Below are positions 21,148-42,798 of a stretch of 64,000 nucleotides of DNA, piece after piece; positions within the stretch are counted from its first letter, which is position 1; the number at the start of each line of letters is the position of its first letter. The translations under genes and the position numbers were made by a program. The notes beneath the pieces are model-generated. The model was given only the letters and a program-made list of their open reading frames with translations, ran no database searches and had not been told where the DNA came from. Where the stretch lies: positions 1,344,686-1,408,685 of the forward strand of contig NZ_CP015249.1 in assembly GCF_001632775.1 (NCBI RefSeq), in the 5' to 3' direction. The stretch is from Dokdonella koreensis DS-123 (GTDB taxonomy: Bacteria; Pseudomonadota; Gammaproteobacteria; Xanthomonadales; Rhodanobacteraceae).

Positions 21148-21686
21148 GGCGCCTAAAGCGAGCCGAGCATCGCAGGTCGGCCAGGCCGGAGAGCTGCCCC
21201 GTGTCTGAGCGAAGCGAGTTGGGGCAGCGTGCCTGGCCGACCGAGAAGCGCAGGGGACCGGCACGGCGCAGCCGTGCCGGCTCGCGCCGGCGACCACGGT
21301 TTTGGTTACTTTTGCCAAGACAAAAGTGACCCGCGCGCGCAGCGTGCGGAAGCTGTTGCTCTGATCTTCTGCCGTGGTTATCTGGTGAGGATGGCTGGCG
21401 CAGAAAAGAGCAACAGCAACATCAAGAGCTTTCGTCCGCTGCGCGGCCGAGTCCCTTTTGTGGCGGTCCATCCCTGGCCGCCACCCGTGCGGGCCATCGC
21501 TGACGCGATGTCAAAAATGTCTCCCGGACATTTTTTGACGGGCCAAAAGGAACCAAAAGCCCTCTCGTCCGGCGTCCCCTGCGCTTCTCGGACGACGAGG
21601 CACGGCGCCCCAACTCGTTTCGCTCAAACACGGGGCGCCTCTGCGACCTCGTCGCCCTGCGATGCTCGGCTTGCTTTAGGGCGAAA
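21148..21686 (+). repeat. Composite inverted-repeat element, copy 1 (arm A, core, arm B)
   Basis: A 539-bp non-coding element between the convergent genes ending at 21068 and 21736. Both ends begin with an inward-pointing CCTAAAGC[GA]AGCCGAGCATCG. Arm A (left) contains a two-level hairpin: outer stem GGTCGGCCAGGC / GCCTGGCCGACC, inner stem GCTGCCCC / GGGGCAGC. It is followed by a perfect 10-bp stem CCGGCACGGC / GCCGTGCCGG and a near-perfect GGTTACTTTTG / CAAAAGTGACC stem. The core (about 21340-21425) is shared, inverted, with copy 3. Arm B (right, inverted) carries one optional module with a GTCAAAAATGTC hairpin. Short ORFs cross it on both strands; I regard them as spurious. Confidence 0.88.
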
Positions 21687-30373: not shown

Positions 30374-30981
30374 TTGCCCTAAAGCAAGCCGGGCATCGGA
30401 GGTCGGCGAGGCCGCAGAGGCGCCCCGTGTCTGAGCGAAGCGAGTTGGGGCGTCGTGCCTCGTCGTCCGAGAAGCGCAGGGGACGCCGGGCGAGAGGGCT
30501 TTTGGTTCCTTTTGGCCCGTCAAAAAATGTCCGGGAGACATTTTTGACATCGCGTCAGCGGTGGCCCGGAGGGCGGCGGCCAGGGATGGCTGCCGCAAAA
30601 GGGACTCGGCCGCGCAGCGGACGAAAGCTCTTGATCGTGCTACTGCTTTGCTCCGTGCCGGCAATCCCTCAAAAGCCACGGCACAAGCTAAGAGCAAGAG
30701 CTTCCGCACGCTGCGCGCGCGGGTCACTTTTGCGGCCCGCCATCCCTGGCGGCCGCCCTTCGGGCCGTCGCTGCGCGACGTCAAGAATTTCTCCAGGAAA
30801 TTCTTTGTCTTGGCAAAAGTAACCAAAACCGTGGTCGCCGGCGCGAGCCGGCACGGCTGCGCCGCGCTGGTCCCCTGCGCTTCTCGGCCAGCCAGGTACG
30901 CTGCCCCAACTCGCTTCGCTCAGACACGGGGCAGCTCTTCGGCCTGGCTGGCCTTCGATGCTCGGCTCGCTTTAGGCGCCA
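30374..30981 (-). repeat. Composite inverted-repeat element, copy 2 (arm B, core, arm A)
   Basis: A 608-bp copy, inverted relative to copy 1, in the gap between convergent gor and the alkaline phosphatase gene. Each arm carries the optional module: about 30520-30590 with hairpin TCAAAAAATGTC / GACATTTTTGA, and about 30735-30812 with hairpin CAAGAATTTC / GAAATTCTTTG. The two module hairpins differ at two positions, with matching changes in the other strand. The A-arm outer stem GGCCAGCCAGG / CCTGGCTGGCC also differs from copy 1 by paired changes. The core (about 30620-30715) is unlike that of copies 1 and 3. Confidence 0.88.
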
Positions 30982-31045: not shown

Positions 31046-31072
31046 ACAGTGATCCGCCGATGGGCGAAGAGC

Positions 31073-31107
31073 CAAACAAAAACGCCGGAGCCTGAAGGCT
31101 CCGGCGT
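31073..31107 (-). terminator. Intrinsic terminator of the alkaline phosphatase gene
   Basis: An 11-bp perfect stem (ACGCCGGAGCC / GGCTCCGGCGT) with loop TGAA. Read on the minus strand, the stem is followed directly by TTTTGTTTGG. It lies about 50 bases after the stop of the leftward phosphatase gene and outside the composite repeat. Confidence 0.85.
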
Positions 31108-31158: not shown

Positions 31159-33228
31159 TCAGTCGGCGCCGCCGATGGCGATCTGGCCGATCTTGAAGAA
31201 CACGTCGGTGTTGTCGAACACGCCGTTGAAGTGGTGCGAGCCGCGGCCGTAGGCCGACAGCGGGATGTCGGTCGCGGTGTGGGCGGCCTGGTCGCCCGGC
31301 ACCTGGCCGGTGACGAGGTAGCCGGTGCCTTCGTTGCGTACGTTGGGGTTGGCCGGCGACTGCGACGGCGGGAACGGCTGCTGCGTGTCGCGGGTCGGGT
31401 AGCGGCTCGGCAGCCAGGTCTCGTAGCGGTCGGCATTGGCGCCGTAGCCGATCAGCATCTTGCCGTCGATGTGCGTGGTTTCGGGGTAGCCGTCCTCGGC
31501 CATCGTGTACTTCGGGAACTTGGCCGCTTCGTAGATGCCGACCACGCTCTTGCCGGCGTCGGGATCGGCCGCGAGCGTGGCCGCGCTGACCGTGGCGGCA
31601 CCGATGATCGCCGCGCCGGAGCACTCGTGGTCGGCCGTGACCAGCACCAGCGTATCGGGATTGCGCTCGGCGAAGCGCTTGGCCACCGCGATCGCCCGGT
31701 CCAGCTCGATGACTTCCAGCGTCCAGCGGTCGGTATCCATCAGGTGCGCCTGCTTGTCGATCGACGAGCCTTCGATCAGTGCGACGAAGCCGTTCGGGTT
31801 CTTCGACAGCACCTTGAGCGCGGCGTCGGTCATCTCGTCGAGCATCGGCTGGTCCGGGAAGCCGAACGCGTCGACCACCGTGGTGTCGCCGCGGCGGCCG
31901 GCGATCTTGTCGTAGGCGACGTTCATGTTCGAGTACGCGAACAGGCCGAGCAGCTTGTCCGGCGTGCCGGCCGCGAAAGCGGCGTCCAGGCCGCTCTTGT
32001 CCGGCGCGTAGCGGAAGCCGGCGCTGCGGAAATCGGCGATCAGGTCGCGTTCCGGGTCGAGCACGCCGCGCGCCACGCCCCAGCCGTTGACGATGTCGTC
32101 GCCGAGCACGTAGTCGTTGGTCTTGCGGCGCTGCGAGCCGTTGACCGGCTGCGGGCTGACGCTGTCGGACGGGTTGGGCAGGAACCACTTGCGGCCGCCG
32201 CCGAGCAGCACGGCCAGGCCGGTCTGGTCGCGGTCGTCGAAGAACTGGTCGACGATGCCGGTGCCGTTGCCGCGTGCCGAGGTGTGGATCGCCATCGAGG
32301 CCGGCGTCGCGTCGAACACGTCGGCCGTGGTGACCACGCCCAGCGACTTGCCCTGCAGGTTGTGCAGGTACTCGGACAGGTATTCGTAGCGCGGGTTGTC
32401 GAACGCGTCGCGGGTGTCGTCAGGCCAGACGCCTTCCTCGTTGTTGTTGGCCTTGTTGCCGGTGACGTAGTTCTGCATGCCCGGCGCCGAGTCGGTGACG
32501 ATCGAGTTCAGCGAGGCGGTCATGACCATGCCGGTGTGCGGGAACGTGTCCATCGCCAGCAGGCCCTTGGCCTTGCCCTGGGCGTAGCCGCGCGAAATGA
32601 TGCGCGCCGCGGTGCGGTGGGCAGCGCCCATGCCGTCGCCGAGGAAGATCACGATGTTCTTGGCGACCTGGCCCGATTCGGGGTTGATGCCGACGATCTC
32701 GAAGTTGCCGGTGGCGCTGATCGTGGTGCCGTCGTCCTGGCGCGCGGTCACGCGCAGCGTGTGCACGCCCGGCGTGCTCGCCGAGAACGCCCGGCGCGAG
32801 ATCACGGTGGTGTTGGCCGGCAGGCCGGCGACCAGCGCGCAGCCGGAGGCGCCGGTGGTGCGGCCGGTGGTGGCATTGATGCAGGTCGCGGCCGGGCCGG
32901 TCTCGGTGACCGTGCTGGTCAGCCGCTCACGCGGATCGTGGATCAGCTCGCCGTCGACCCAGAACGGTCGCAGCGTGCTCTGGTTGTCGACGAAGAAGTC
33001 GAAGTGGACGATCGTGCGGCCCGCATCGGGCTCGATCGTCGCCTGCAGGTCGAAGCGCTGGCCCGGCAGGAAGCGGGCGATGACGGGGGCTTCCTCGCCG
33101 CTGGCGAACAGCTCGCTCGGCGGCGTGAGGCGCGAGATGCGCGCGGCGAAGGCGTCGCCGGCGAGGACGCCGAGGACGGCGGCCGCCAGCAGCGGCAGAC
33201 CGCGACGGGATCGTGAGGCGAGGGACAT
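31159..33228 (-). CDS. phoA: Secreted alkaline phosphatase (PhoA superfamily) with N-terminal extension
   Basis: A 689-residue exported phosphomonoesterase. A Sec signal peptide (residues about 1-29) is followed by a non-catalytic domain of about 160 residues with Cys116 and Cys130 (possible disulfide). The phosphatase core starts near residue 190: metal-binding LGDGMG (D198), nucleophile Ser247 in VTDSAPGM, SSIDKQAHLMD, and TADHECSG. A long C-terminal section (YGRGSHHFNGVFDNTDVF) carries the last metal His residues. It releases phosphate in the periplasm or outside the cell. It lies 57 bases after the secreted-protein gene at 33286-33891. No clear Pho box was found. Confidence 0.9.
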   Translation of the reverse strand: MSLASRSRRGLPLLAAAVLGVLAGDAFAARISRLTPPSELFASGEEAPVIARFLPGQRFDLQATIEPDAGRTIVHFDFFVDNQSTLRPFWVDGELIHDPRERLTSTVTETGPAATCINATTGRTTGASGCALVAGLPANTTVISRRAFSASTPGVHTLRVTARQDDGTTISATGNFEIVGINPESGQVAKNIVIFLGDGMGAAHRTAARIISRGYAQGKAKGLLAMDTFPHTGMVMTASLNSIVTDSAPGMQNYVTGNKANNNEEGVWPDDTRDAFDNPRYEYLSEYLHNLQGKSLGVVTTADVFDATPASMAIHTSARGNGTGIVDQFFDDRDQTGLAVLLGGGRKWFLPNPSDSVSPQPVNGSQRRKTNDYVLGDDIVNGWGVARGVLDPERDLIADFRSAGFRYAPDKSGLDAAFAAGTPDKLLGLFAYSNMNVAYDKIAGRRGDTTVVDAFGFPDQPMLDEMTDAALKVLSKNPNGFVALIEGSSIDKQAHLMDTDRWTLEVIELDRAIAVAKRFAERNPDTLVLVTADHECSGAAIIGAATVSAATLAADPDAGKSVVGIYEAAKFPKYTMAEDGYPETTHIDGKMLIGYGANADRYETWLPSRYPTRDTQQPFPPSQSPANPNVRNEGTGYLVTGQVPGDQAAHTATDIPLSAYGRGSHHFNGVFDNTDVFFKIGQIAIGGAD

Positions 33229-42134: not shown

Positions 42135-42213
42135 CCCGGTAAAAAGGGGTTTTTCGTCTTTACTGCGGGATCACTCGGCTCCGGCTCCGCTCTGGCTCTG
42201 GCCTTTGACTTTT

Positions 42214-42719
<506 letters not shown>

Positions 42720-42769
42720 GGCGAGAGCGAGGCGAGAGCCGATCGATTCACGCAGCGGGGCAAAGAACC

Positions 42770-42798
42770 AAAAAAAGAACGCGCCATGCGGCGCGTTC
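42770..42798 (-). terminator. Intrinsic terminator of the leucine dehydrogenase gene
   Basis: A 9-bp perfect stem (GAACGCGCC / GGCGCGTTC) with a 4-base loop. On the minus strand it is followed by TTTTTTTGG. It lies about 65 bases after the stop of the leftward gene and is separate from the composite repeat. Confidence 0.88.

Follow-up and report, generated by a model that had tools for sequence, protein, structure and literature searches.

The composite inverted repeats found between convergent genes in a 64,000-nt stretch of the Dokdonella koreensis DS-123 genome (the window) are best read as copies of an orphaned, non-autonomous mobile repeat of the ISL3 type (a MITE), which would have inserted beside terminators and been tolerated at gene tails, with a hairpin, H1, as its probably older cargo. 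We give this reading, which is drawn from sequence comparison, a probability of about 0.7. An initial annotation of the window had listed a non-autonomous mobile element among the possible roles of the repeats, and this option is supported by short gaps without H1 in a close relative, by terminal inverted repeats with A/T runs, and by the same ends next to an ISL3 transposase gene in related genomes.

Copies in the window and in the genome

Coordinates of individual features are positions in the window, and numbers such as 1230155 are positions in the organism's own genome (G000), which was searched as one contig of 4,446,619 bp. H1 is the name coined in this analysis for a 95-nt arm hairpin. 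The three copies lie where the initial annotation had placed them, with matches at 21148-21684, 30376-30980 and 42214-42674. The proposed arrangement of an A arm, a core and an inverted B arm is real, the computed repeat structure giving arms of 107-143 nt that are 80-88% complementary, and the search of the genome with copy 3 confirmed that copy 1 has the opposite orientation to copies 2 and 3. The annotated lack of a target duplication is probably an effect of the chosen coordinates, outside which A/T runs on both sides and inverted ends are found: the copies continue with hexamer runs and then with inverted ends (GGTTCTTCGCCCAT..) that adjoin the A/T runs.

Copy 1, delimited by sequence reading and the own-genome search, occupies 21148-21686 on the minus strand as a composite. 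It contains a B-type H1 of 95 nt (21161-21255, plus strand), a short H2 hairpin (GGTTACTTTTG..CAAAAGTGACC; 21304-21331, plus), a long H2 hairpin with a loop insert of about 80 nt (21451-21554, minus), and an A-type H1 (21577-21671, minus). The composite of copy 2 (30374-30981, plus) has an A-type H1 (30387-30481, plus), long H2 hairpins on the A side (30504-30605, plus) and the B side (30722-30824, minus), and a B-type H1 (30873-30967, minus). Its right terminal inverted repeat (GGCTCTTCGCCCATCGGCGGA on the minus strand) lies at 31053-31073 and adjoins the intrinsic terminator (31077-31107, minus) of the facing gene (31159-33228, minus); its left end was not recognised. Copy 3 could be followed from end to end over 622 bp (42148-42769, plus), beyond the 42214-42674 annotated initially. 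From left to right, it comprises a degenerate terminal inverted repeat (42148-42168, plus) with an A run just outside (42141-42145), an A-type H1 (42227-42321, plus), short H2 hairpins on the A side (42344-42371, plus) and the B side (42491-42518, minus), a B-type H1 (42567-42661, minus), an AACAGC hexamer run (42674-42721, plus), and the right terminal inverted repeat (GGTTCTTTGCCCCGCTGCGTG on the minus strand; 42749-42769) with an A run outside (42770-42776), against which the terminator hairpin of the facing gene abuts (42777-42798, minus).

The window has seven convergent gaps, three of which hold a copy (667, 839, and 729 bp) and four of which measure 25-74 bp. The claim that the repeats occur only between convergent genes is therefore exact for the window; genome-wide it becomes a strong bias. 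Searching the own genome with copy 3 yielded 113 matches, merged by hand into 27 stretches that represent 26 places, the stretches 582397 and 583756 being one copy split by an insert. With genes called by a codon model trained on the same genome, 21 places are convergent, 5 tandem, and none divergent, and the equal spread over gap types that would have spoken against the initial observation was not found. The tandem places are 582397, 931841 (a label based on uncertain ORFs), 1230155, 2793015, and 4170664. The split copy 1477403 was counted as convergent, its true right neighbour being a 474-codon minus-strand gene past the right end. A null sample of 20 pieces of 20 kb from the same genome contained 47 convergent, 46 divergent, and 198 tandem gaps, so that convergent gaps are expected to make up 16% of gaps and 11% of intergenic bases; the probability of 21 or more convergent places among 26 is 7e-13 by gap count and 2e-16 by bases. 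Ten of the 26 copies lie within 1230155-1477487, which is 5.6% of the genome (P 7e-7, for an interval picked after looking), and since the window is inside this cluster, the family is over-represented in it.

As initially annotated, the elements have no transposase gene of their own. Called genes fall inside 3 of the 27 stretches, two of them belonging to the same inserted IS and one being a 52-codon call. The inserted IS, 1264 nt long and identical (0 differences) in the copies at 1771365-1773194 and 3112882-3114681, carries an rve integrase core, and we take it to be an IS481 element. In both copies it is inserted at one and the same position of H2 and bordered by an identical short duplication, and the surrounding element parts are 94% identical; movement of a whole copy or a target preference of the IS may explain this. 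Two more copies, at 582397-584283 and 1477318-1481313, are split by inserts that are presumably IS3-like, and of the latter only a piece of the left arm and the right end are left, about 3.8 kb apart.

Anatomy and conservation of the H1 and H2 hairpins

From the outside inwards, a well-preserved copy consists of the end repeat GGTTCTTCGCCCATNNGCGGG, a run of hexamers of the GGCTTT or AACAGC type, H1, a GC-rich stretch, H2, and a short middle, after which the mirror image follows; two units in inverted orientation, each of one H1 and one H2, make up the cargo. Copies in the own genome measure about 620-870 bp without later inserts and are devoid of genes. H1 has two stems, of 12 and 8 bp, and a mini-stem of two pairs that closes a loop of three bases. 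Its loop reads TGTYTGA-GC-GNA-GC-GAGTT, and the near-direct repeats CCGAGCAYCGCAG and CGAGRAGCGCAGGG form its flanks. A pattern search found 40 H1 in the own copies, 39 of equal length and 37 distinct. The stems of the A and B types differ by matched changes, and within a type H1 is nearly identical across copies. The H2 hairpin (GGTTACTTTT..AAAAGTGACC) has loops of either 3-5 or 77-81 nt where these were measurable, which among the 21 stretches examined was the case on both sides in 16 and on one side in 5. The variable length of the core is mainly due to an optional insert of about 78 nt in each H2 loop, which explains the initially annotated copy lengths of 461, 539, and 608 bp.

The pairing of H1 is under strong conservation by several measures. 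In 31 rows of the 36 distinct trimmed arms from the own genome, 96.9% of the cells are paired and 55 are double-change cells; none of 500 shuffles reached as high a value for paired cells, double changes, or covariation score, and two measures gave no clear excess over the shuffles (pairs changed on both sides, 39/500; pair types, 49/500). For 71 distinct H1 from other genomes, in an alignment that was fitted to the covariance model and thus leans towards the structure, 96.8% of the cells are paired and 387 double-change cells compare with 121 in shuffles (0/500). Double changes affect 16 of the 22 pairs of this set (3/500 shuffles as high), and the covariation is 0.587, compared with 0.129 in shuffles (0/500) and at most 0.10 in slid controls. 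Among the 116 distinct H1 from the 80 listed named-genome loci, out of at least 118, 19 of 22 pairs have double changes (0/500 shuffles). We claim conservation of the loop from the 71-sequence set only, the looser named-genome pattern fixing the loop and the 3' flank by construction. In this set, the seven-base mini-hairpin is present in 67 of 71 sequences, and it has the form GC-GNA-GC in 65 of these 67. A K-turn-like fold is one candidate reading of the loop. The sequence d(GCGNAGC) is an extra-stable DNA mini-hairpin. Extra-stable hairpins with stems of 2-3 bp are also described in a passage of the literature from which the sequence meant is not evident (PMC10527192).

The initial annotation did not recognise a named family, which agrees with our searches: Rfam 15 gave 0 matches in the window and none above the gathering threshold in five H1 loci (L001, L052-L055), and our search of open-licence papers met no description of the H1 element. 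H1 was also considered as an intrinsic terminator and rejected, as it is followed by GAGAAGCGCAGGG without a T-run and the true terminators sit outside the element ends.

Ends, insertion sites, and the link to ISL3

Both terminal inverted repeats could be placed by eye in 14 of the 26 copies, some of them weak (the left ends of 1230155, 1771365, and 3112882), and in the other 12 an end is degenerate or missing on one or both sides. Ten of the 14 two-ended copies are bordered on both sides by a run of the same base, A or T, and four are not, by thresholds of 5 of 9 and 4 of 9 that we chose ourselves and applied as counts without a shuffled control. ISL3 elements duplicate 8 bp of their target; the runs bordering the copies are homopolymers, so the length of a duplication cannot be fixed here. 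Searched through the own genome with up to 2 mismatches, the end repeat gave 13 matches, all assigned to known copies, and with 3 mismatches 9 of 13 matches lay elsewhere, compared with 4 for a reversed control.

Copies often adjoin the T-tract of one intrinsic terminator. Of 47 gene ends facing an element, 16 have a terminator with a T-run ahead of it, one of these terminators being weak (2369749, with a 5-bp stem), compared with 5 of 54 convergent and 3 of 109 tandem gene ends elsewhere (Fisher P 0.003 against convergent ends and 8e-7 against both); among 21 copies examined at both flanks, none has a terminator at each. Intergenic A/T runs of at least 5 in the control stretches numbered 12 in convergent, 24 in tandem, and 11 in divergent gaps (n=47), and their availability alone would not yield the 21/5/0 distribution (P 6e-9), indicating that selection or further targeting is needed. 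The control terminators, 5 of 8 convergent and 3 of 8 tandem, would nearly yield the bias (P 0.04, with small counts).

We compared the sites with those of G001, a genome of the same genus whose matched query pieces are 74-98% identical to the own genome. The query consisted of 48 coding ends from 24 places, of which 17 were found with both flanks, 5 with one, and 2 with none; together with copy 2, this gave 18 orthologous gaps, whose ends were set by local alignment to within a few bases, in a comparison of two genomes that is unrooted. H1 was not found in G001, either among 150 scored candidates or in the 22 G001 stretches that were read. At 13 of the 18 pairs, the gap is shorter in G001 (6-1534 bp) than in the own genome (549-2434 bp), the individual values being 6 vs 2195, 43 vs 866, 108 vs 674, 126 vs 851, 182 vs 2130, 185 vs 549, 211 vs 843, 213 vs 839 (copy 2), 217 vs 930, 350 vs 948, 527 vs 2434, 594 vs 1150, and 1534 vs 2195 bp. 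It is longer in G001 at the remaining five (2369749, 1241342, 1248668, 1270111, and 1413221). Only the gaps of 6 and 43 bp are nearly bare, and several of the shorter ones hold other sequence.

For 13 of the 17 sites and for copy 2, the two genomes were also set side by side in sequence. The 43-bp site of G001 joins cleanly at ..CCGTGAT|TTTTTCGG.., and at 4170664 the join leaves no remainder except the T-run. The terminators that border the element at 1230155, 1771365, and 1055896 are also found in G001, T-run included, which indicates that the element adjoins an older terminator. The copy-2 site of G001 retains a hexamer-like run and the end-like GGCGAAGAA, so that loss, rather than a site that was never filled, is possible there. 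A different repeat with H2-like hairpins (GGTTACTTTTC..GAAAAGTGACC) and no H1 occupies a convergent gap of this genome (L058, G001:C1:1223132).

When 1 mismatch was allowed, the end pattern turned up in three of the 146 other family genomes, at 3 places in G139, 4 in G322, and 1 in G329. In two of these loci (L203 and L200), GGTTCTTCACCCATTACCGGG lies beside an ISL3 transposase gene (PF01610, 5e-65 and 2.5e-43) whose frame stops inside the end repeat, one end of that IS having been read; a third locus (L201) holds pieces of the same protein, as judged by eye. All 8 loci have an A/T run of at least 7 at the junction (TTTTTTT, AAAAAAA, or longer); for L204 this holds for the right side alone. 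L204 (G139:C2:447730) is an element of 680 bp with both ISL3-type ends that adjoins a terminator; its two longest frames match no Pfam family and H1 was not found inside it, and by its sequence it looks like a second non-autonomous case with a different gene-less cargo. An intact ISL3 transposase was not found in the own genome, which counts against present mobility. The one ISL3 match there is weak (25.7 bits) and falls in the last part of a fatty-acid desaturase ORF (L207, G000:C1:3934715-3935065).

Copies would thus have been moved in trans by an ISL3 transposase that is now absent from the genome. Insertions elsewhere would have been removed by selection, leaving copies at gene tails and above all in convergent gaps, and the terminators would have acted as targets rather than as merely tolerant sites. 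The convergent bias is likely to reflect both targeting at terminators and the removal of harmful insertions.

Spread of H1, alternative readings, and significance

A covariance model built from the own arms was used to scan 299 genomes of the order, and H1 was found in at least 49 of them, the own genome included (E <= 1e-4). This is a lower bound, since at most 14 candidates were scored per genome and the own genome gave 14, compared with 40 by pattern. When 150 candidates were scored in twelve genomes, one H1 each appeared in two members of the own genus that the shallower scan had missed (G003:C8:217696 and G004:C24:4311) and none in the other ten, G001 among them. The order-wide set comprises 92 matches in 73 loci, with 71 distinct sequences. 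An exact 25-mer of the own loop gave 0 matches in the genome contigs searched, being too specific, and a pattern scan of named genomes returned at least 118 stretches, 80 of which were listed. Among those listed, most belong to Stenotrophomonas, Xanthomonas, Luteimonas, Pseudoxanthomonas, Lysobacter, and other Lysobacteraceae, and others to Silvimonas, Methylotenera, Sedimenticola, Desulfobulbaceae, and an unclassified proteobacterium. All eight outlying loci were confirmed by the covariance model (E <= 1e-7). As judged by eye, seven of them have an H2-like hairpin after H1, the exception being L268, where none lies within 170 nt, and the three Silvimonas loci have GGCTTT or GCCTTT runs in front of H1. 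The Silvimonas records bear strain names; misbinning is conceivable for those of Methylotenera, Sedimenticola, Desulfobulbaceae, and the unclassified proteobacterium, which were assembled from metagenomes. H1 occurs without ISL3-type ends in Stenotrophomonas, Xanthomonas, Luteimonas, Silvimonas, Methylotenera, and Desulfobulbaceae, and since it is present in further genera and other phyla, usually accompanied by an H2-like hairpin, it is probably older than its ISL3-type wrapping.

Across the order, 67 clusters, formed from 82 of the 92 matches (the other 10 being the same places fetched twice), comprise 37 convergent, 25 tandem, and 3 divergent places and 2 contig edges, with none inside called genes; one convergent place is counted twice (L088 and L134), and the labels of L092/L150 and L114 shifted between trainings of the gene caller. 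Collapsed by hand by neighbouring genes, many being orthologous sites in related species, 24 of 49 are convergent, 23 tandem, and 2 divergent. The named set, which used 96 of 124 matches (the rest lying near locus ends) and may share genomes with the order-wide set, forms 55 clusters, of which 32 are convergent, 21 tandem, 1 divergent, and 1 at an edge. The bias of H1 is towards gene tails, and it is strongest in the own genome. Single H1 show no orientation preference, with 13 on the minus and 12 on the plus strand in convergent gaps and 11 sense and 12 antisense in tandem gaps.

Several loci illustrate rearrangement. Two orthologous convergent gaps of the genus g38 (276/289-aa and 291/301-aa neighbours) contain the paired composite in opposite orientations in different species, as judged by eye, and the comparisons of L097/L127 with L118 and of L108 with L121 hint at recombination between the arms. 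At a third site of this genus (201/179 neighbours), the types stand in opposite order and one arm is eroded, again by eye. In L108 and L121, the gap ends outside H2 form a locus-specific inverted repeat whose two sides co-vary between species. Two genomes (G044 and G243; L053, L110, and L111) share a divergent-gap site at which H1 has its flank motifs swapped (CGAGAAGCGCAG first).

The other two roles put forward initially assign a function to the hairpins themselves. As a selected insulator or roadblock, facing H1 and H2 hairpins would stop or process read-through from both convergent genes and be kept for that, as the 21 of 26 convergent places, the compensatory changes that preserve the hairpins, and the retention of several orthologous sites across species of one genus would suggest. 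We consider this unlikely: no T-run follows H1, which lies sense to the genes about as often as antisense (11 and 12, respectively), an ordinary intrinsic terminator already stands ahead of the element at 16 of 47 gene ends facing it, G001 manages without H1 at the same gene pairs, and of the 299 genomes of the order only 49, a lower bound, were found to have H1. A structured RNA (3'-UTR regulator or sRNA) whose TGTYTGA/GAGTT internal loop would be read by a partner protein seems to us quite improbable, for H1 is placed without preference for the strand of the flanking genes, which argues against a strand-specific RNA role; it also forms inverted pairs on both strands and is absent from Rfam. 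What does stand of this proposal, and very strongly, is the structure, with covariation in 19 of 22 pairs at the 80 listed loci, near-invariant loop and flanks, and an occurrence across phyla.

That the stems only appear to covary, H1 being functionless and template switching correcting its quasi-palindromes in the course of inverted-repeat decay and repair, is a very doubtful reading. Homogenisation within the own genome is evident from the near identity of same-type arms across copies, but template switching does not explain an unpaired loop and two flank motifs that are near-invariant across genera and present in other phyla. We regard as least probable a REPIN- or BIME-like element mobilised by a RAYT, to which the two unlike hairpin types in inverted pairs, the gene-tail location, and the two Y1_Tnp genes of the own genome would point. 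The hairpin has 95 nt rather than 20-40, the ends are of the ISL3 type instead, and no H1 was found in the stretches around the two Y1 genes, which are RAYT-like neighbours (L085 and L086, G000:C1:1426018-1428470) about 12 kb from the nearest copy. Across the order, H1 presence is independent of Y1_Tnp, which occurs in 33 of the 49 H1 genomes and 158 of the 250 others (Fisher P 0.63, with the H1 list as a lower bound), and the RAYT link was rejected.

The element can be compared with several known kinds of repeat. Like a MITE, the element is gene-less, dispersed in many copies, inserted at A/T-run targets, matched by short orthologous gaps, and equipped with terminal inverted repeats that it has in common with an autonomous IS in relatives; it differs in a conserved paired-hairpin cargo that is found elsewhere without these ends and in an autonomous partner that is missing from its own genome. 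The R0, R2, and related repeats of Pseudomonas fluorescens are likewise stem-loop-forming, with two inverted repeats around a variable core, and show an excess of Tail-repeat-Tail (convergent) positions that was read as a 'least worst' location, the removal of harmful insertions being proposed (PMC2718517). The repeats tabulated there are set apart by their length of 50-352 bp and inverted repeats of 11-43 bp (PMC2718517). REP, BIME, and REPIN sequences with RAYT also have non-coding hairpin units in inverted pairs at gene tails, REPs being described as lying mostly between unidirectional and convergent genes (PMC3733652, PMC3116915, PMC2817692). REPs are 20-40 bp long with GTAG/CGTC tags (PMC3733652, PMC3116915, PMC2817692), whereas H1 has 95 nt, its own loop, and the flanks CCGAGCAYCGCAG and CGAGRAGCGCAGGG, and did not track Y1_Tnp genes. 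The subterminal hairpins of IS200/IS605 share the idea of a folded single-strand signal (PMC6006769), but no such transposase was linked to H1 here.

These findings offer a testable case for the old question of why intergenic repeats of bacteria gather between convergent genes, in that placement beside terminators can here be compared with short orthologous gaps. H1 combines exceptional covariation with a near-invariant loop in distant bacteria and is missing from the RNA-family library, and the former two suggest that some protein probably reads it. Such a putative protein, spreading or maintaining H1, might recognise it as a folded single strand, of DNA more likely than of RNA, in the manner of the hairpins of REP or IS200/IS605 elements. 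We tentatively raise the possibility that the H1-H2 module is a new class of structured element in Pseudomonadota and Desulfobacterota, whose hairpin may be the substrate of a putative single-strand (DNA or RNA) copying or recombination enzyme, and which may move by itself, form inverted pairs able to flip where they stand, or be enclosed in IS ends, as here. The identity of the putative H1-reading protein would be new biology.
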